Assembly: GCA_902784785.1 (NCBI GenBank)
Contig: CACZWF010000022.1
Location: 1-32,499 of the forward strand
DNA: 32,499 bases
Direction of reading: 5' to 3'
From: an uncultured Bacteroidia bacterium
GTDB taxonomy: Bacteria > Bacteroidota > Bacteroidia > Bacteroidales > UBA932
Numbering within the stretch: position 1 is the first letter of the stretch; every line of letters starts with the position of its first letter. The position numbers and the translations under genes were made by a program. A model generated the notes under the pieces. It made no database searches and had not been told where the DNA came from. It saw only the letters and a program-made list of their open reading frames with translations. Of the stretch, positions 6,468 through 18,352 are shown in pieces.

Positions 6468-7642
6468 GAGTCCCTTTGATGCGATATGCCTTTTTGAACG
6501 AGGCTCAGACGAAAGAAAAGCTGGCGGATTTTATCCGTGGCGCGGAAATGTTTTCCATGGGTAAGGAGTGCGCGGAATTCGAGCGGAAATTTGCCGCGTG
6601 GCAGGGTTGCAAGCACGCCCTCCTGTTCAACAGCGGCGGCAGCGCCAATCTGGCTTTGTTGCAGTCTCTCAAGAGCTTGGGCCGTTTGAAGGAAGGGGAC
6701 AAGGTGGGCTTTTCTTCCCTGACTTGGTCCACGAATGTGATGCCCATCATCCAGATGGGGATGATTCCCGTTCCGGTGGATGTGGACAAGAAAACGGCCA
6801 ACGTGATGTCTTGGAACCTCTTGGAGCGTCTGAAAGAAACGGACTTGCAGGCTTTTTTCGCCACGAATGTGCTGGGGTATGCCGGTGATTTGAAAGAAAT
6901 CCAATCCCTATGCCGGGAGCGGGGGATTGTGTTTATGGAGGACAACTGCGAGGGCCTTGGCGGCCGTATCGCGGGCGACCGTTTCGGCAACTTCGGCGTG
7001 GGCTCGACTTTCTCTTTCTTCGTGGCGCACCACATGTCCACTATCGAGGGGGGAATGTTCTGCACGAACGATGACGAGCTGTGCCGGATGATGACGATCA
7101 CGCGGGCCAACGGCTGGGACCGGAATCTTTCGGCGGAGGAGCAGGTGAAGATGCGGGAGCCGTACAAAATCAATCCTTTCTTTGCCAAATACAGTTTCTA
7201 CAATCTCGCGTTCAACTTCCGTCCGACGGAAATCACGGGTTTCCTGGGGCAGGAGCAGATGCAATACCTGGATGAGAACATTGAGCGCCGTCTGGCCAAT
7301 CACGCTCAGTTCGACGCGGCCATCTGCGGGAATCCGGAGCTCATCCATATCGAACACGCTCATATCGACAGCATTTCGCCGTTCGGTCTGATTGTCCTGT
7401 GCCGTACGCCGGAGCTGCGGGACAAGTACCTCCAACGTTTTGCCGAAGCGGAAATCGAGGTGCGTCCGGTGATTGCCGGCAATATGCAGAACCAGCCCTT
7501 CTACCGTAATTATGTGGACAAACTGTACGATTTGCCGAATACGGATTTCTATAACAACTGCGGTTTTTATTGCGGCAATTTCCCCGAAATGACGCAGGAG
7601 GATGTGGATGCCATCTGCGGGTGCCTTAGGTCAAATTCTTAG
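6464..7642 (+). CDS. DegT/DnrJ/EryC1/StrS-fold PLP enzyme with His at the lysine site (ColD/RfbH-like 3-dehydratase)
   Basis: A 392-residue fold-type I PLP enzyme. The family hallmarks are NSGGSANLAL at 56-65 for cofactor phosphate binding, MEDNCEGLGG at 158-167, and the segment SFFVAHHMSTIEGG at 184-197. In sugar aminotransferases this last segment has the Schiff-base lysine; here it has H189-H190 and no lysine. That change is known in the 3-dehydratases ColD (GDP-4-keto-6-deoxy-D-mannose, about 390 residues) and RfbH/E1 (CDP sugar, longer, with an iron-sulfur cluster). The length and the gmd neighbour favour the ColD type, which removes the C3 hydroxyl with PLP and glutamate. The predicted product is GDP-4-keto-3,6-dideoxymannose, a precursor of GDP-L-colitose. 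The ATG overlaps the preceding stop. The stop overlaps the convergent acyltransferase gene by four bases. Confidence 0.85.
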   Translation: MRVPLMRYAFLNEAQTKEKLADFIRGAEMFSMGKECAEFERKFAAWQGCKHALLFNSGGSANLALLQSLKSLGRLKEGDKVGFSSLTWSTNVMPIIQMGMIPVPVDVDKKTANVMSWNLLERLKETDLQAFFATNVLGYAGDLKEIQSLCRERGIVFMEDNCEGLGGRIAGDRFGNFGVGSTFSFFVAHHMSTIEGGMFCTNDDELCRMMTITRANGWDRNLSAEEQVKMREPYKINPFFAKYSFYNLAFNFRPTEITGFLGQEQMQYLDENIERRLANHAQFDAAICGNPELIHIEHAHIDSISPFGLIVLCRTPELRDKYLQRFAEAEIEVRPVIAGNMQNQPFYRNYVDKLYDLPNTDFYNNCGFYCGNFPEMTQEDVDAICGCLRSNS

Positions 7643-8544
7643 AACCAGAATCTTCTGTGCGTCCAGAGGTAGTTGGCGGGATTGCGACGAATGTCTTCTT
7701 CCAGCAGCTTGAAATATTTCTGCATGATGTCTTCCACCGTCATGTCCTTGGCGTTTTCACAAATCGTCGTGTATTCCATCAAGTAATGCCCTTGTTTCGT
7801 GCGGTTGAGGTTGAGATAGACCACCGCCATGCCGAATTTCTGGGCGAGGGCCGCCGCTGCGGACATCGTGTGGACGCGATGGTACAGGAACATGCACTCT
7901 ACATAATGGGGCGCTTCGAAATACGGCCGCTGGTCGGTGTTGACATTGTAGATGATTTTTTTGTCTTTGTGCTCATAGACGTAACGCGCCACTTTCTTCG
8001 ACTCGACATAGCCCTCGAATTTTTCTTTATCGCGGACCGGGGCGATGCGGTTGAGGCGGATGATGTCATCCCATAATTTGCTGGAAAGCCGGCGATAGAC
8101 TACGCAGAAATTCGCTTCGTAACTTCTTTTCGGCTCGTCGCTGTAGTCGTATTGGTCGTAACCGCCGTACAGTTCCCAGTTGCCGGTGTGGGAGTACATG
8201 ACCATGACGCTGGGAGATTTGTCATACAGTTCGTTCATCATTGCCACATCCCGGTTTTCCATGATGCGGGCCTTGTGCAGACGCTCGGGATTCTGGCAGG
8301 CGCCGAACCAGATACTTTCGACAATCAGTTCTGCAAAATGCTGATAGAATGCTTTGGTTATGGCTTTGATTTCATTGTATTCTTTTTCCGGGAAGCAGCT
8401 GGTGAGGTTGATGATGACTTCATCCCGTCGATAACCAATGACCCGGTGCAGTAGCCAAGCCATCCATCGGGCGTTGAAATAGTGAAAACTGAGCGGCAGC
8501 ATCCCGAACAGCCGCATCAGGGCGCGTATGATGAATTTGAACAT
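7639..8544 (-). CDS. LpxL/HtrB-like lysophospholipid (lipid A) acyltransferase
   Basis: A 301-residue member of the lipid A biosynthesis acyltransferase family, which moves a fatty acyl chain onto a lipid acceptor at the inner membrane. The N-terminus (MFKFIIRALMRLFGMLPLSF) is a hydrophobic, basic membrane anchor. The catalytic H-x4-E motif is H119-TGNW-E124. The ending NYLWTHRRFWF resembles the conserved LpxL C-terminus. Typical length is about 300. The natural substrate may be lipid A or another lipid such as an aminolipid; Bacteroidota have several paralogues. The start at 8544 has only five bases between it and a TATATTTG box, so the mRNA may be nearly leaderless; ATG 8517 is the alternative but would remove part of the anchor. 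It converges with the sugar operon and diverges from secA. Confidence 0.87.
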   Translation of the reverse strand: MFKFIIRALMRLFGMLPLSFHYFNARWMAWLLHRVIGYRRDEVIINLTSCFPEKEYNEIKAITKAFYQHFAELIVESIWFGACQNPERLHKARIMENRDVAMMNELYDKSPSVMVMYSHTGNWELYGGYDQYDYSDEPKRSYEANFCVVYRRLSSKLWDDIIRLNRIAPVRDKEKFEGYVESKKVARYVYEHKDKKIIYNVNTDQRPYFEAPHYVECMFLYHRVHTMSAAAALAQKFGMAVVYLNLNRTKQGHYLMEYTTICENAKDMTVEDIMQKYFKLLEEDIRRNPANYLWTHRRFWF

Positions 8545-14076: not shown

Positions 14077-15300
14077 TTGAAGGTTATAGTTGGAATAGGT
14101 AAGGGTGTGGGTGCGGTCGTTGGGGCCGTGCTCTTGCTTTTCGTGCTCTCGGAGGTCAGCCCTATCTATGATTTCCGGGTCCCGGAGCCGTTCCAAGGTC
14201 CTGATATCTTCAATCCTTATCGGAATCTGCACGATAGTCTGACGGGTGCGGACTCGCAGGCGGCGACGCTTTGGAAACGGGCGGTGTTTCATACGCACAC
14301 GCGGGTGAAGGGCCCCTGGCCGCTCAATGAATGCCGCTATTGGCCCGCTCACGTGGATTCGGTCTATCGGACTTTCGGCTACGAAATCATCACCTTTTCC
14401 AATCATAACGAGATCATTTCCCACCCTTACGACACGGCCTTGCAGGTGAATGTGTACGAGCACGGATACAATCTGTTCAAGTACCACAAGTGCGTGTTCG
14501 GGTCACCGTCCGTGATTCATTTCGACAATATGCTGCCCGTGCTGGCTTCCCAGAAGCAGTTCCAGTTGGATTACCTGGGGCGGACCTCCGATTTTATCCA
14601 GATGAATCATCCTTTCCGCACTTTTTGTACGACCCCGGATGTGATGCGGAAGCTTTCGGGCTATGAACTCATCGAACTGGACAGCGGGGTGAGTGTGGAA
14701 AATGAATATTGGGACTGGGCGCTCGGCGCGGGACATTACAGTTTTGCATTGGCCAATGATGACTTGCATTACCCGGACCGTTCCGACCGCATCGCCGTGC
14801 GCTGCAATTTCCTGCATTGCCCTTCGGGGCGATATGAAGACATCAAGGCCTGCCTGCTGGGCGGTTGCTTCTATGCGATGCGGGTCCCGGACTACGGTAA
14901 CGGGGATTGGGCGGAAAAACACGCCCGCAATAGATGTCTGCCCTCCATTACGGATATCGGCTTGAAGGACAGTACCATCTTTATGACGCTGTCCGTGCCC
15001 GCCGACAGCATACGGGTCATCGGTCGTGATCATTCGCGTCTGGCCCTGGCCGTCGATACGGATACGATGGCCTACACCCTTCCTGCGAATGAACCCTACG
15101 CGCGTCTGTGCGCTTGGTTCCCCGGGGGAGAGGTGATTTATACCAACGCCTTCGCCCGCTATGATGCGTCCCTGGCGTCCGATCCGTTCAACAACGCGCC
15201 GCAGCCGGTGAACGTGCCGTTGACCATCTTGTATAATCTGCTGGTCCTGTGCCTGTCCGCCGGATTGGTCTGGCTGCTGGTCAAATTATTTCGTCTATGA
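14077..15300 (+). CDS. Membrane-anchored PHP-type metal-dependent hydrolase
   Basis: A 407-residue protein with one N-terminal membrane segment (about 9-25, GKGVGAVVGAVLLLFVLSEV) and one near the C-terminus (about 380-403). Between them the sequence follows the PHP (polymerase and histidinol phosphatase) pattern: HTHT at 72-75, GYEIITFSNHNEI at 101-113 where the usual DH is NH, YEHG near 128, MNHPF near 198, and ANDDLHYP near 226, which supply the expected His/Asp/Glu metal ligands. A phosphoesterase outside or in the periplasmic space is likely; the substrate is unknown. No ATG fits: the frame has a stop at 14059 and the first plausible start is TTG 14077 (GTG 14107 is an alternative inside the membrane segment). 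Its stop overlaps the EptA-like start (ATGA), so the two are coupled and may act on the same envelope lipid. Confidence 0.7.
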   Translation: MKVIVGIGKGVGAVVGAVLLLFVLSEVSPIYDFRVPEPFQGPDIFNPYRNLHDSLTGADSQAATLWKRAVFHTHTRVKGPWPLNECRYWPAHVDSVYRTFGYEIITFSNHNEIISHPYDTALQVNVYEHGYNLFKYHKCVFGSPSVIHFDNMLPVLASQKQFQLDYLGRTSDFIQMNHPFRTFCTTPDVMRKLSGYELIELDSGVSVENEYWDWALGAGHYSFALANDDLHYPDRSDRIAVRCNFLHCPSGRYEDIKACLLGGCFYAMRVPDYGNGDWAEKHARNRCLPSITDIGLKDSTIFMTLSVPADSIRVIGRDHSRLALAVDTDTMAYTLPANEPYARLCAWFPGGEVIYTNAFARYDASLASDPFNNAPQPVNVPLTILYNLLVLCLSAGLVWLLVKLFRL

Positions 15301-16817
15301 AATGCTTCTTCCCTAAAAAAGTCAGCCTGACGGTATTCAGCCTGGTGTTGAGTCTCTACACCTTGCTGACCTTCCATTTTCCTTTCCTGCGTCACGCTTC
15401 TCACCAGGTAGAAAGCGGCTTCAGCGGTGTGGTGATTCTGGTTAGCCTGGTCTTGCTGCTGCTGGTTTTGAATTTCTTCTTCTATTATCTGCTCACCTGG
15501 TTGGGACGGCTTGTGGGAAGAATCATCATCAGCCTGACCTTGATTGGGGATGCCATTATGCTGTATTTCGTCAATAACTATGATGTTCTGGTGACGGATG
15601 AGATGATGGGCAATGTATTCCGGACGCAGTTCAGCGAGGCTTCGGGATTTTTCTCCTTCTCCTTTATATTATATGTGTTGTTTCTGGGAATCGCTCCTTC
15701 GGTCTATGTGCTGGGGCGCAAGGTCGAGTTCGGCTCGTGGAAGCGTTTCCTTTCCTGGATCGGGGGCGCGCTGGGTGCCGTGTTGGTGATTGCCTTCGGA
15801 AATATGCCCTCCTGGCCGTGGATAGACAAGAATTCGACGGAACTGGGAAGTATGCTGATGCCCTGGTCCTATGTGATCAATACTTTCCGCTACTATGACG
15901 GGGAAAGGAAGAAGAATGCGAAGGAAATCCTTCTGCCGGACGCGCGTTTCGACAACGAGCGGCCGGAGGTGTTGGTGCTGATGGTCGGGGAGTCGGCCCG
16001 TCGGGACCATTTTGCCTATTATGGTTATGAGCGGAACACCAATCCTTATACCGCGTCGGACGGCCTCACCGCCTTGGTCGCGGATTCGTATACGACCTAT
16101 ACGGCGGGAAGCCTCAAGGCGATTCTGGAATATCAGCCGACGGGGGATTTGTATGAGATTTTGCCCAATTATCTCTATCGCCACGGTGTGGATGTGTCCT
16201 GGCGGACCAGCAACTGGGGCGAGCCGCCGGTGCATATTGAAAAGTATGCGAAGGTGGGGGACTTGAAGGCGCGTTATCCCGAGGCGGACGATCGTTATGA
16301 CGGTATCTTGCTGGCGGGTTTGAAAGAGGAAATCCAGGCCAGCTCGGCTTCCAAAGTCCTGGTCGTGCTGCATACCAACACTTCGCACGGACCGGCCTAC
16401 AACACCAAATATCCGCCGGAGTTCGAGACTTTTACGCCCGTTTGCAGTACTGTGGAGATGGCCAAGACCGACCGGCAGCAACTGCTCAACGCCTACGACA
16501 ACAGCATCGTCTATACCGATTATCTGATTCACAGTGTGATTGAGTTGCTCCGCGAGATTCCGGAGCGGCGTTCCGCCCTGATTTATGTCTCCGACCACGG
16601 CGAATCACTGGGCGAGAACAACCTCTATATGCACGGCGTTCCCATTTCGATGGCGCCGAAAGAGCAGATTGAGATTCCTTTCCTTGTCTGGACTTCGGAT
16701 GCGCTCAAGGTCAAATCCCTTGGCAAAGTCGGTCAGCACCACATTTTCCACTCCGTGATGCACTTCTTCGGCATGACCAGCCCTATCTATAATCCCGACT
16801 TGGATATTTTTGAGTAG
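15297..16817 (+). CDS. EptA-like phosphoethanolamine transferase
   Basis: A 506-residue inner-membrane enzyme of the phosphoethanolamine transferase family (sulfatase fold), which decorates lipid A or related lipids with phosphoethanolamine. Five hydrophobic segments occupy about 12-30, 44-64, 75-95, 120-139 and 153-170. The periplasmic domain shows metal ligand E232 in GESARRDHFAYYGYERNTNP, candidate nucleophile T269 in TYTAGSL, H364 in NTSHGPAY, and D433/H434 in SDHGESLGENNLYMHG with H446. This motif set and order match EptA. ATG 15297 is chosen because it overlaps the previous stop; 16 further upstream residues in the frame are shadow. Such enzymes lower the negative charge of the surface and raise resistance to cationic peptides. 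Its last codons (PDLDIFE-stop) are duplicated at 18299-18322. Confidence 0.92.
   Translation: MKCFFPKKVSLTVFSLVLSLYTLLTFHFPFLRHASHQVESGFSGVVILVSLVLLLLVLNFFFYYLLTWLGRLVGRIIISLTLIGDAIMLYFVNNYDVLVTDEMMGNVFRTQFSEASGFFSFSFILYVLFLGIAPSVYVLGRKVEFGSWKRFLSWIGGALGAVLVIAFGNMPSWPWIDKNSTELGSMLMPWSYVINTFRYYDGERKKNAKEILLPDARFDNERPEVLVLMVGESARRDHFAYYGYERNTNPYTASDGLTALVADSYTTYTAGSLKAILEYQPTGDLYEILPNYLYRHGVDVSWRTSNWGEPPVHIEKYAKVGDLKARYPEADDRYDGILLAGLKEEIQASSASKVLVVLHTNTSHGPAYNTKYPPEFETFTPVCSTVEMAKTDRQQLLNAYDNSIVYTDYLIHSVIELLREIPERRSALIYVSDHGESLGENNLYMHGVPISMAPKEQIEIPFLVWTSDALKVKSLGKVGQHHIFHSVMHFFGMTSPIYNPDLDIFE
16794..16817 (+). repeat. 24-bp direct repeat, copy 1 (3' end of the EptA-like gene)
   Basis: This stretch encodes PDLDIFE-stop at the end of the phosphoethanolamine transferase gene. 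It matches 18299-18322 at 22 of 24 positions; the two differences (TTG/CTG and GAG/GAA) are synonymous. With copy 2 it brackets the ATPase gene. Confidence 0.8.
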
Positions 16818-16878
16818 CTACGTCAATTTTAGGAAAAGTGTAAGAGAAGAAGTCGGCCGATAACCAAGGTTGATATAT

Positions 16879-16937
16879 ACTTTCTCCCGAAAAACATTCA
16901 TACTTTTTACCGAAAATTTTTTCAACTTTTTCCCGAA
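16879..16937 (+). repeat. Three direct repeats ACTTTYTNCCGAA with exact 23-bp period
   Basis: Copies ACTTTCTCCCGAA (16879-16891), ACTTTTTACCGAA (16902-16914) and ACTTTTTCCCGAA (16925-16937) start exactly 23 bases apart. The last lies between the -33 and -7 regions of the ATPase promoter, where a bound repressor would block transcription. They look like operator iterons. Confidence 0.75.
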
Positions 16938-16942
16938 TTGAT

Positions 16943-16950
16943 TATCTTTG
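16943..16950 (+). promoter_or_regulatory. -7 box TATCTTTG for the DUF4143-type ATPase
   Basis: An exact TAnnTTTG match ending 18 bases before ATG 16969. It overlaps the upstream TTG at 16948, which argues against that codon as the start. Confidence 0.7.
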
Positions 16951-16968
16951 CCTCAGAAAATACTTGAT

Positions 16969-18270
16969 ATGGAAGGATATAAGCATAGAATCGCAGATGC
17001 CCTGCTCGACAGGAAACTCCAAGGAAACGGCGCTGTTGTCGTAGAAGGCCCAAAGTGGTGCGGAAAAACCACCACAGCCGAACAATTGGCCCAAAGCGTC
17101 ATCTATATGGATGACCCAGACAAAATCACCGAGCATATAACCGTGGCCAACATCTGTCCCAGGGACCTGCTCATAGGAGACAATCCACGCCTGCTTGACG
17201 AATGGCAAATTGCCCCCCAGCTCTGGGACACAATCCGTTTTGAAGTGGACCACCGGAAAGGCCAAGGCCACTTCATCCTCACGGGATCCTCAGTCCCCAT
17301 CCAGGAAGACGATGACGAAGACATCCCGGAGAATCAGAAGATTCGTCACTCGGGTACAGGACGATTCGGATGGCTCAGGATGCGTCCTATGGCTCTCTAT
17401 GAATCCGGCGAATCCAATGGCACCGTCAGCCTGAGAGAGCTTTTTTCCACCCCCGAAATAATCTATGCCAAATCTAAACTCACCCGGGAAGACATCGCAT
17501 ACCTCATCTGTCGTGGCGGCTGGCCGGAATCCCTTGAAATGGACAAGGAAATCGCACTGGACAAAGCATTCGATTATGTCGATGCCATTGCAGAAAGGGA
17601 TATGTCCCGCGTGGACAAAACCAATCGAAGCCCGGAGAGAGTCCGTCGGCTGATGCGCTCCTATGCTCGCAATCAAGCCTCGCAGGCCACATTTGAAACA
17701 ATGGCAGAGGATATGCGTGCCAACGAACCTAAAGCGCTGGATACAGACACCATTGCTTCCTATATCACTGCCTTGCGCAAACTCTTTGTCGTGGAGGAGT
17801 CAGAAGCATGGAATCCCAATCTCCGCAGTAAAACGGCAATCCGGACTTCAAATACCCGATATTTTACAGACCCGTCCATTGCCTCTGCCAGTTTGGGCTT
17901 AGGCCCGAATGACCTTTTAAACGACTTCAATACCTTCGGCCTCCTGTTCGAGACACTCGCTGTCAGGGACCTCAGAACCTATGCCGATGCCTTGATGGGA
18001 AAGGTGGCCCATTATCGCGACGTGACGAATCTCGAATGTGACGCGGTAGTCCATCTGCGTGACAGAAATTATGGCCTTGTAGAAATCAAGATTGGTGGTG
18101 ACAATCTCATTAATGAGGGCGCTGAATCTCTCAAGAAACTTCGTGACAAGATTGACACTACCAAGATGAAGAAGCCTTCCTTCCTGATGGTGCTCATCGG
18201 CATCGGCGAGATTGCTTACCGCCGCGACGATGGCGTGTACGTGGTCCCGCTTGGTTGCTTGAAAGATTAA
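16969..18270 (+). CDS. AAA ATPase with C-terminal DUF4143 / nuclease-fold region
   Basis: A 433-residue protein of the widespread bacterial and archaeal AAA family annotated as ATP-binding protein DUF4143. Walker A is GPKWCGKT at 27-34, the Walker B-like block is RLLDEWQ at 74-80, and FILTGSS at 102-108 is the sensor strand. A helical middle (about 170-300) leads to a C-terminal region with E329, ECDAVV at 356-361 and VEIKIGG at 371-377, the spacing of a PD-(D/E)xK nuclease-like core. Length is normal for the family. The biological role of this family is not established. ATG 16969 (MEGYKHRIADALLDRK) is chosen because the upstream TTG lies in the promoter box. The gene is flanked by the 24-bp repeats, has its own promoter and operators, and by eye uses more A-ending codons than its neighbours, all suggesting acquisition. 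Confidence 0.88.
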   Translation: MEGYKHRIADALLDRKLQGNGAVVVEGPKWCGKTTTAEQLAQSVIYMDDPDKITEHITVANICPRDLLIGDNPRLLDEWQIAPQLWDTIRFEVDHRKGQGHFILTGSSVPIQEDDDEDIPENQKIRHSGTGRFGWLRMRPMALYESGESNGTVSLRELFSTPEIIYAKSKLTREDIAYLICRGGWPESLEMDKEIALDKAFDYVDAIAERDMSRVDKTNRSPERVRRLMRSYARNQASQATFETMAEDMRANEPKALDTDTIASYITALRKLFVVEESEAWNPNLRSKTAIRTSNTRYFTDPSIASASLGLGPNDLLNDFNTFGLLFETLAVRDLRTYADALMGKVAHYRDVTNLECDAVVHLRDRNYGLVEIKIGGDNLINEGAESLKKLRDKIDTTKMKKPSFLMVLIGIGEIAYRRDDGVYVVPLGCLKD

Positions 18271-18298
18271 TCCATCTTTTTAGCAATATAGCTGAAGC

Positions 18299-18322
18299 CC
18301 CGACCTGGATATTTTTGAATAG
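18299..18322 (+). repeat. 24-bp direct repeat, copy 2 (displaced 3' end of the EptA-like gene)
   Basis: This copy can still be read as PDLDIFE-stop, but the sequence before it (a TGA two codons upstream) is not EptA-like, so it is a bare gene end. It is followed at once by a hairpin that could be the original terminator of the EptA-like gene. Confidence 0.75.
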
Positions 18323-18352
18323 GGTCCGGACGTTCCTTTTTTGGGCCCTTTG
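18321..18352 (+). terminator. Possible terminator after repeat copy 2
   Basis: AGGGTCC at 18321-18327 pairs with GGGCCCT at 18343-18349 (one G-T pair), with a T-rich loop; only TTTG follows the stem. Moderate support as a terminator. Confidence 0.4.

Follow-up and report, generated by a model that had tools for sequence, protein, structure and literature searches.

An ATPase gene of a candidate defence family that looks like a mobile unit, at a duplicated eptA-like gene end in an uncultured Bacteroidia bacterium

How did an ATPase gene come to lie between an intact eptA-like gene and a duplicate of its final codons? The locus lies in a window of 32,499 nucleotides (the whole stretch of DNA analysed; contig CACZWF010000022.1). 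Our data indicated that a gene so far listed among possible antiviral defences itself resembles a mobile unit: close copies of the ATPase gene occupy unrelated loci, and about one-fifth of the loci are flanked by a duplication of adjacent DNA. In several cases the duplicated piece is the 3' end of the adjacent gene, so that this gene stays readable. Taken as a whole, the reading of the ATPase gene as a one-gene mobile unit is on balance probable, if narrowly. That the unit moves itself is something we infer, with passive transfer as the main rival.

The duplicated end of the eptA-like gene

The product of the complete eptA-like gene scored 565.6 bits against PRK09598 (cut-off, 561). The end of this gene, CCCGACTTGGATATTTTTGAGTAG, recurs behind the ATPase gene as CCCGACCTGGATATTTTTGAATAG, with 22 of 24 positions identical; both copies encode PDLDIFE followed by a stop codon, the two codons that differ being synonymous. 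The preliminary description of an intact gene end and a downstream fragment with a hairpin (-13.0 kcal/mol for region 18316-18352) was thus confirmed. When the 600 nt that follow the ATPase gene were shuffled 2000 times, no match exceeded 18/24, and the ungapped score of the eptA flank pair (18) was higher than that of any of 273 mismatched flank pairs (maximum, 14), which ruled out a chance match as the origin of the repeat. In a looser peptide-level test, the eight residues alone were not significant, because the window scored 40 and the best of 266 controls scored 44. A decayed eptA paralogue was rejected, since the 28 nt from the ATPase stop codon to copy 2 contain no further eptA match. 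The same duplication was present in separate assemblies (L147 and L155; L266 and L268), which argues against an assembly artefact; on the other side, each of the 13 duplications for which a named record exists came from a metagenome-assembled or uncultured genome, and three NZ_ Prevotella loci that were checked had arrays and lacked the duplication. Taken together, chance, a decayed paralogue and an artefact make an exceedingly improbable explanation.

Table 1. Features of the ATPase unit and its target gene in the window
Feature	Position	Strand	Remarks
eptA-like phosphoethanolamine transferase CDS, complete, target gene	15297..16817	+	Pfam Sulfatase, EptA_B_N; NCBIfam PRK09598
Repeat copy 1, final eight codons of intact eptA-like gene	16794..16817	+	Putative element-side version
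Stretch between eptA-like gene end and array	16818..16876		59 nt; mostly absent from closest ATPase copies
23-bp tandem array	16877..16937	+	About 2.7 units; left edge of mobile unit
TATCTTTG	16943..16950	+	Promoter -7-like box
ATPase CDS	16969..18270	+	433 aa; AAA_14 + DUF4143
ATPase protein residues			Walker A 27-34; Walker B 75-78; PD-(D/E)XK-type D358, E372, K374
Tail between ATPase stop codon and repeat copy 2	18271..18298		28 nt
Repeat copy 2	18299..18322	+	Putative native eptA-like gene end, now a fragment
Hairpin after copy 2	18321..18349	+	

The end of the intact eptA-like gene appears to be the newcomer, because the downstream copy matches the native eptA end in relatives (G158 and G010); copy 1 is further than copy 2 from the relatives' gene end. 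These two genomes (89% and 81% identity, respectively) were the nearest relatives when sets of 61 and 400 genomes were searched, and an empty eptA site was not found there. In G158, another ATPase gene follows eptA, and no duplication of the eptA end was seen there; in G010, the contig stops 130 nt on. The empty site anticipated in the preliminary description was not found at eptA itself in these searches; for a sister insertion at an acetyltransferase gene, two relatives have the site without the unit, as judged from its downstream side.

The ATPase and the unit in which it travels

By its sequence, the ATPase is a PDC-S01-family protein, a candidate defence (PADLOC profile PDLC04790; 195 bits; E 3.6e-58; residues 1-431), with Pfam matches over the cut-off to PF13635 (100.9 bits) and PF13173 (39.6 bits). 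It carries a predicted PD-(D/E)XK-type domain: among the 153 full-length proteins from 165 loci, D358 and E372 were present in all 153 and K374 in 152, and the helix-strand order of residues 320-412 presumably fits the PD-(D/E)XK core. The Walker residues are conserved among the relatives, and ATPase copies at unrelated loci showed a dN/dS of about 0.03 at a dS of about 1. The best Foldseek matches were the archaeal AAA+ ATPases SSO1545 (2fna; E 7.9e-7) and PABY2304 (2qen; E 8.9e-7), with TM-scores of only 0.38 to 0.48. Most of the matches were ATPases; nucleases that we take to be the CRISPR-associated Card1 and Cdn1 stood at ranks 8 (E 2.6e-4) and 12 (E 6e-4), with a TM-score of 0.2 and aligned ranges not given.

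Between the repeat copies, the plus strand holds no long open reading frame other than the ATPase gene, in agreement with the proposed single-gene cargo without an integrase. The search of the ATPase product found no integrase or transposase domain (a DDE match at E 0.18 was insignificant); two minus-strand frames of 109 and 128 aa overlap the gene. ARAGORN found no tRNA in the window, and neither of the two inverted pairs between 16000 and 19500 lies at the unit ends.

The "own promoter and operators" of the preliminary description correspond to a period-23 array and the TATCTTTG box, which we take to be a Bacteroidetes -7 element. A period-23 array was detected in 130 of 154 ATPase loci (threshold, 12; shuffled maximum, 9.4); a separate lag test was passed by 55 of 90 loci, with lag 23 the best in all 55. 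Homology between the window unit and close ATPase copies begins at 16867-16880. In close pairs of loci without long shared flanks, the shared stretch starts no more than 15 nt from an array start in 55 of 72 pairs, and in 54 of 82 its end lies no more than 8 nt from the stop codon. The ATPase gene travels as a unit of about 1.4 kb, made up of the 23-bp tandem array, the promoter region and the coding sequence with its stop codon.

A serious, if somewhat doubtful, possibility is that this unit is passive cargo, that is, DNA of other strains joined by homology-anchored illegitimate recombination or by a single crossover of a circle holding the gene end, with selection, for example for phage protection, keeping the array and the gene. 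The listing of the family as a PADLOC candidate defence would suit such cargo. The recurrence of the array as the left edge in the 55 pairs argues against it, as does the sharing of at most 133 nt upstream and at most 43 nt downstream in seven of the nine pairs that have at least 94% DNA identity and no long shared flanks.

Flanking repeats and other insertion sites

Direct repeats flank 31 of 148 loci of ATPase relatives versus 12 of 473 neighbouring genes (pooled Fisher p 4e-12), a result that supports the preliminary description. The two sets gave 18/87 versus 5/302 (first set) and 13/61 versus 7/171 (replication in named public genomes), and merging the loci with shared flanks gave 29/130 versus 12/473 (p 3e-12); at the same threshold, inverted repeats flanked 4/87 and 2/61 loci. 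When 89 loci were screened at the peptide level for a duplicated end of the upstream gene, which was usable in 82 of them, 11 loci scored above the control best of 44, none of them new. No flanking repeat was found in 117 of the 148 loci, which speaks against a mobile unit, as do the imprecise edges and an upstream mismatch at the acetyltransferase gene.

The duplications range from 14 to 218 nt over 32 flank pairs, with no fixed length. Only 6 of 31 left repeat copies are found no more than 15 nt from a clear array start, against a chance expectation of 1.6, and only 6 of 32 right copies begin no more than 8 nt from the stop codon, so the unit edges are unlike those of a precise transposon. 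Such uneven lengths and edges would also suit passive cargo. A related, equally patchy ATPase subfamily with 32/33-bp arrays, in which one of 28 rows (one row without enough flank) carries a duplication (p 0.03), counts against passive cargo; its near lack of duplications is at the same time awkward for a mobile unit.

The target genes include eptA, hisS, recJ, a GNAT acetyltransferase gene, a Na+/H+ antiporter gene and a DUF3089 gene, as well as a gene start in L077. It is quite improbable that the unit is an integrase-type cassette that brings a gene end as its attachment site and is served by a recombinase encoded elsewhere. Gene-end regeneration and a foreign end on an intact gene are marks of such elements, and in L147 and L155 the repeat travels with the unit, both copies lying inside a common 1.7-kb block, an arrangement that also weighs against a mobile unit; the target genes, however, are unrelated, and the listed repeats share neither a common core nor a length. 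Of the earlier proposal of integration at a gene's 3' end, the insertion there with a second in-frame copy of that end was supported, the arrangement being seen likewise at hisS; site-specific integration as such was not supported, given duplications from 14 to more than 200 nt and loose edges.

The same genome holds an ATPase paralogue at the 3' end of hisS, and an 89-nt duplicate of the hisS end follows it; here, too, the downstream copy matches the native end of relatives, less clearly than at eptA. At the acetyltransferase gene in G130, the downstream copy matches the native gene end of relatives, and G186 and G120 have this site without the unit, as compared on the downstream side only; upstream of the gene, G130 did not match relatives lacking the unit. 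Passive cargo would fit the foreign look of the intact acetyltransferase and hisS gene ends, and the whole acetyltransferase gene may have arrived with the unit. At recJ, G010 has no array after the gene; its downstream sequence is unmatched, and the site was not counted as empty.

Between the repeat copies of nine hand-picked cases, 30 codon differences were synonymous and 19 non-synonymous, the partly synonymous divergence being in line with passive cargo. The earlier suggestion that one copy came from another strain fits the synonymous differences in part: selection on the intact copy alone would also account for some of them, and at hisS and L182 non-synonymous differences outnumber synonymous ones. 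One genome has an identical ATPase coding sequence on two contigs (two copies). In L077 and L078, the coding sequences are identical with six differences in the 119 nt upstream, a pattern favouring ectopic gene conversion between resident paralogues, by which distant copies would only appear mobile. That explanation is very improbable: the left edges lie at the array start, the pairs share nothing beyond it, and the existence of an acetyltransferase site without the unit weakens it. The flanking copies of L077 and L078 differ at 7/59 and 5/11 codons, which is not expected from a fresh target duplication and speaks against a mobile unit.

Possible mechanism and relation to known systems

On the one-gene mobile-unit reading, the unit would have entered at the last codons of the eptA-like gene in the window, which would now end in the element-side copy, with the native end behind the ATPase gene. 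The ATPase protein may bind the 23-bp array and either cut the target with a stagger or invade it, repair then filling the gap, so that the outer edges would be loose and the duplications would vary in length. Later homologous recombination between strains at the gene end would explain copies that differ at synonymous sites. We propose, tentatively, that PDC-S01-type ATPase-nucleases with 23-bp arrays are possibly unrecognised autonomous one-gene mobile elements, with the array recognised by the protein as the left end, wide-stagger cuts at gene 3' ends and target duplications of variable length, and without an integrase or transposase. Mobility and phage protection, the latter suggested by the PADLOC listing, can both be true.

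PDC-S01 is described, in the excerpted text of the sources, as the fourth most common defence across prokaryotes, an ATPase fused to PD-(D/E)XK, with most such candidates still awaiting validation (PMC12988326), and in rumen genomes as the individual locus with the highest count (10,358; PMC13356809). The window ATPase belongs to the same sequence family; the array, unit edges and duplications are not mentioned in the excerpts of these two papers, and in the parts of the literature on the family's mobility that were covered, including PMC4158269, no description of a 23-bp array or duplications was found. If PDC-S01 members are mobile units of this kind, spread may account for their abundance no less than protection does; under the autonomous-element reading, one of the most abundant prokaryotic "defence" genes, as ranked in these excerpts, would spread by its own transposition. 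The private array would then offer a handle for finding what the ATPase protein binds, and the duplicated gene ends would polarise each insertion. The locus is a concrete test case for transposase-free movement of DNA by an AAA ATPase that has a PD-(D/E)XK domain.

Integrative elements at the 3' ends of genes and tRNA genes regenerate the gene end, leave the native end downstream, encode an integrase and have a fixed core; the window unit shares the regenerated, duplicated gene end, whereas neither an integrase nor a fixed core was found here. Free-standing homing endonuclease genes are one-gene mobile units with a nuclease that home to one sequence, whereas the targets of the ATPase unit differ and its protein includes an AAA ATPase. 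Unlike an insertion sequence or DNA transposon, the unit has no transposase domain, terminal inverted repeats or fixed-length target duplication. To our knowledge, the Rpn / YhgA-like proteins of E. coli have neither an AAA domain nor a 23-bp array. They belong to the PD-(D/E)XK family (PMC1913061), a point of likeness to the window ATPase with its PD-(D/E)XK-type residues. They have been linked first with horizontal transfer that is RecA-independent (PMC5350276) and subsequently with phage defence (PMC10327210); movement as units with target duplications is not mentioned in the excerpts of these three papers.

The BrickBuilt MITE of Porphyromonas gingivalis is mobile and has 23-nt tandem repeats, IS5-like terminal inverted repeats and no transposase remnant, according to the excerpted source (PMC4596501); on account of the IS5-like ends, it was rejected as a non-autonomous relative of the unit. 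One array type, searched for in seven genomes, was present at six loci, all before ATPase genes, and as one relic at recJ in the window's own genome.

The duplicated end of the eptA-like gene and the array-plus-gene unit

The 24-bp duplication of the eptA-like gene end, claimed in the preliminary description, was confirmed: the copy ending the intact gene (copy 1) and the copy behind the ATPase gene (copy 2) were identical at 22/24 positions, and both encoded PDLDIFE-stop, with two differing codons, both synonymous. Across 2000 shuffles of the 600-nt stretch past the ATPase gene, no match to copy 1 exceeded 18/24; at the peptide level, the match between the copies scored 40, not above the best of 266 controls (44). 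The claimed absence of an integrase also held, as neither an integrase nor a transposase domain was detected in the window's ATPase (a DDE match at E 0.18 was noise). No tRNA was found within the window.

Features of the window and of other loci (L, loci compared; G000, the window's own genome; G158, a related genome)
Feature	Position	Remark
eptA-like gene	15297-16817	
Copy 1	16794-16817	End of eptA-like gene
23-bp array	16877-16937	
ATPase gene	16969-18270	433 aa
Copy 2	18299-18322	28 nt past ATPase stop
Second hisS-like gene	G000:C47:13223-14122	
PF01637-type ATPase gene, G158	L073:13621-15066	
PF01637-type ATPase gene, G158	L330:10339-11847	
ATPase-like gene, window's genome	L344:3441-4631	Array directly upstream, period 22
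ATPase-like gene, window's genome	L346:3611-4957	Array directly upstream, period 32-33
ATPase-like gene, window's genome	L346:1875-3224	Array directly upstream
ATPase-like genes, window's genome	L347:3298-4647 and 6568-7929	Arrays directly upstream

Upstream of the ATPase genes lay a tandem array with a period of 23 bp, for which 55/90 passed a lag test (lag 23 in all 55) and 130/154 scored at least 12 in a second test with a shuffled maximum of 9.4; the repeat sequence itself varied among members. Edges were compared in 93 pairs at ≥80% DNA identity, of which 11 had long common flanks and the 82 others were analysed. The common stretch stopped ≤8 nt from the stop codon in 54/82 pairs and started ≤15 nt from an array start in 55 of the 72 pairs with a clear array, with both edges so placed in 36/72. 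Three ATPases at unrelated loci (L107 in genome G183, L217, and L221) showed 94-95% protein identity to the window's ATPase, and only the array-plus-gene stretch was common to these loci and the window. The dN/dS in these comparisons was about 0.03 at a dS of about 1, which indicates strong selection on the ATPase protein. One array type (≤2 mismatches, 7 genomes) occurred at six loci, all before ATPase genes, and once as a solitary 23-bp array behind recJ in the window's genome (G000:C82; L297, L329), with no ATPase gene after it; array and ATPase gene were both present after recJ in G158.

Direct repeats flanking the unit

Flanking repeats were scored in 600-nt flanks (ungapped score ≥14). 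The first set comprised 93 loci with ATPase relatives among the matches listed, window included; a direct repeat was present in 18 of the 87 loci having enough flank and an inverted one in 4/87, compared with direct repeats at 5/302 neighbouring genes, a control count that retains three ATPase-sized ORFs of 391-435 aa among its five matches. Mismatched flank pairs reached the threshold in 1/273 cases. In a second set of 72 more loci from named public genomes (79 minus 7 already in the first set), direct repeats were found in 13/61 vs 7/171 controls, and inverted repeats in 2/61. The pooled frequency was 31/148 vs 12/473 (p = 4e-12, loci sharing flanks included), or 29/130 after merging loci with common flanks (p = 3e-12). 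A related, equally patchy subfamily, drawn from 30 loci, had a repeat in 1/28 rows, one row being without flank (p = 0.03 whether or not that row is counted). The array and the ATPase gene form a discrete unit found at many unrelated sites, with flanking DNA duplicated in about a fifth.

Further ATPases flanked by duplicated gene ends, which the preliminary description had proposed to seek, were present, as exemplified by hisS in the window's genome, behind which lies the gene for a 59%-identical ATPase and, behind that, a copy of the last 89 nt of hisS. Other targets were recJ (L133), a GNAT acetyltransferase gene (L113), a Na+/H+ antiporter gene (L114), and a convergent DUF3089 gene (L182), all named by Pfam, as well as the start of a downstream gene (L077).

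Native gene ends and the proposed movement of the unit

The nearest relatives found were G158 (89% at EptA) and G010 (81%); in both, the eptA-like gene ends ...GGA(C/T)ATTTTTGAATAGGGCG, with which copy 2 and the GGG behind it agree and copy 1 (GAGTAGCTACG) disagrees. Since copy 2, not copy 1, fits the relatives' ends, the intact gene carries a new end, and its native end is copy 2, 3' of the ATPase gene. An eptA site lacking the unit, anticipated among relatives, was not found in these two: eptA in G158 is followed on the opposite strand by a PF01637-type ATPase gene, with no duplicated eptA end, and the G010 contig stops 130 nt beyond the eptA-like gene. PF01637-type ATPase genes occupied two equivalent sites in G158, one after eptA and the other with hisS and an outer-membrane-protein gene as its neighbours, and a 50-nt stretch resembling the DUF4143 ATPase end lay 3' of hisS in the same genome.

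The intact hisS of the window's genome ends ...DDLDGMVAFIGQLPK, with final codons that extend into the repeat array, and the downstream copy ends ...DDLEGIISFIK. The closest hisS among 41 genomes, that of G010, ends ...DDIEGLLTFVKS, more like the downstream copy; because hisS in G158 ends ...DDIAALTAWLKA and hisS ends generally vary widely, the polarity suggested here is less certain. A second hisS-like gene in the window's assembly, which shares 66% identity with the first and has a stop within the matched stretch, may be a paralogue or contamination.

We lean, narrowly, towards the ATPase gene being a one-gene mobile unit. The protein would recognise its own array and open the target by a widely staggered cut, the gap would be filled by repair, and movement between strains via recombination at the gene end would then give rise to diverged copies. 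Several observations argue against a clean transposon. In 6/31 cases (1.6 expected), the left copy lay ≤15 nt from a clear array, and in 6/32 the right copy started ≤8 nt past the stop. Repeat lengths ranged from 14 to 218 nt in the ungapped scan, and a gapped comparison lengthened the duplication flanking the ATPase gene in L181 to 634 nt (91% identical). Both repeat copies in L147 and L155 fell within a common 1.7-kb block, and in L026 and L251 the 23-bp array itself was present on both sides of the ATPase gene.

The main rival, passive transfer of the ATPase gene, is the less likely explanation but a serious possibility, and it draws on the acetyltransferase site (L113, in genome G130). In G186 and G120, which lack the unit there, the acetyltransferase gene end is followed directly by TTGATTATCTATAG, and the next gene, of the FMN-reductase type (PF03358), is the one behind the 94-nt fragment in G130 (about 90% DNA identity), a match confined to the downstream side. 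Their acetyltransferase genes have 75-77% DNA identity to the intact G130 gene, and no match between G130 and these genomes was found upstream of it. The intact G130 gene most resembles that of G030 (92.5%), and the two are followed by a 37-nt stretch in common. The upstream mismatch and the likeness to G030 suggest that the import may not have been limited to the array and the ATPase gene and perhaps included the entire acetyltransferase gene, which slightly weakens the mobile-unit reading and slightly strengthens passive transfer.

Synonymous differences between the copies had been read as a sign of a different strain, and this stood in part. Nine coding cases, hand-picked for a clear reading frame (two without any difference), yielded an excess of synonymous over non-synonymous codon differences (30 vs 19), but the order was reversed in hisS (2 and 4) and L182 (2 and 7). 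By estimate, about half of the differences could be synonymous if selection acted on the intact copy only, so the codon counts speak weakly for a foreign copy. Two contigs of G058 (L077 and L078) carried identical ATPase coding sequences (422 codons), although the 119 nt preceding them differed at 6 positions and the flanking copies at 7/59 and 5/11 codons; either the flanks originated in another strain, or gene conversion homogenised the coding sequences.

The ATPase protein and other subfamilies

The window's ATPase combines AAA_14 with DUF4143 and belongs to PADLOC family PDC-S01. Walker A residues G27, G32, K33, and T34, Walker B residues D77 and E78, and D358 and E372 were invariant in 153 full-length, stop-free proteins from 165 loci, with K374 conserved in 152. 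An AlphaFold2 model built from the window's ATPase together with 41 proteins of named loci (mean pLDDT, 91) had the archaeal AAA+ ATPases SSO1545 and PABY2304 as its top Foldseek matches; the CRISPR-associated nucleases Card1 (rank 8) and Cdn1 (rank 12) matched with low TM-scores. A nuclease function is predicted from the conserved residues together with the order of helices and strands in residues 320-412. Two defence-gene surveys describe PDC-S01 as very abundant (PMC13356809, PMC12988326), and one presents it as a fusion of an ATPase with PD-(D/E)XK that awaits validation (PMC12988326). Relatives at 58-67% identity lay on contigs labelled Lachnospiraceae, Clostridiaceae, Oscillospiraceae, Eubacterium, and Treponema (L222-L228, L236, L237, and others), which may reflect cross-phylum transfer or bin contamination.

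The easiest lead to pursue is whether each ATPase subfamily keeps an array period of its own. Array periods upstream of other ATPase-like genes of this superfamily in the window's genome were 22 (L344), 32-33 (L346 and L347), 34, and 15 bp, and a lag of 32 or 33 was found in 23 of the 28 relatives of the second-listed of these genes (L346:3611-4957).
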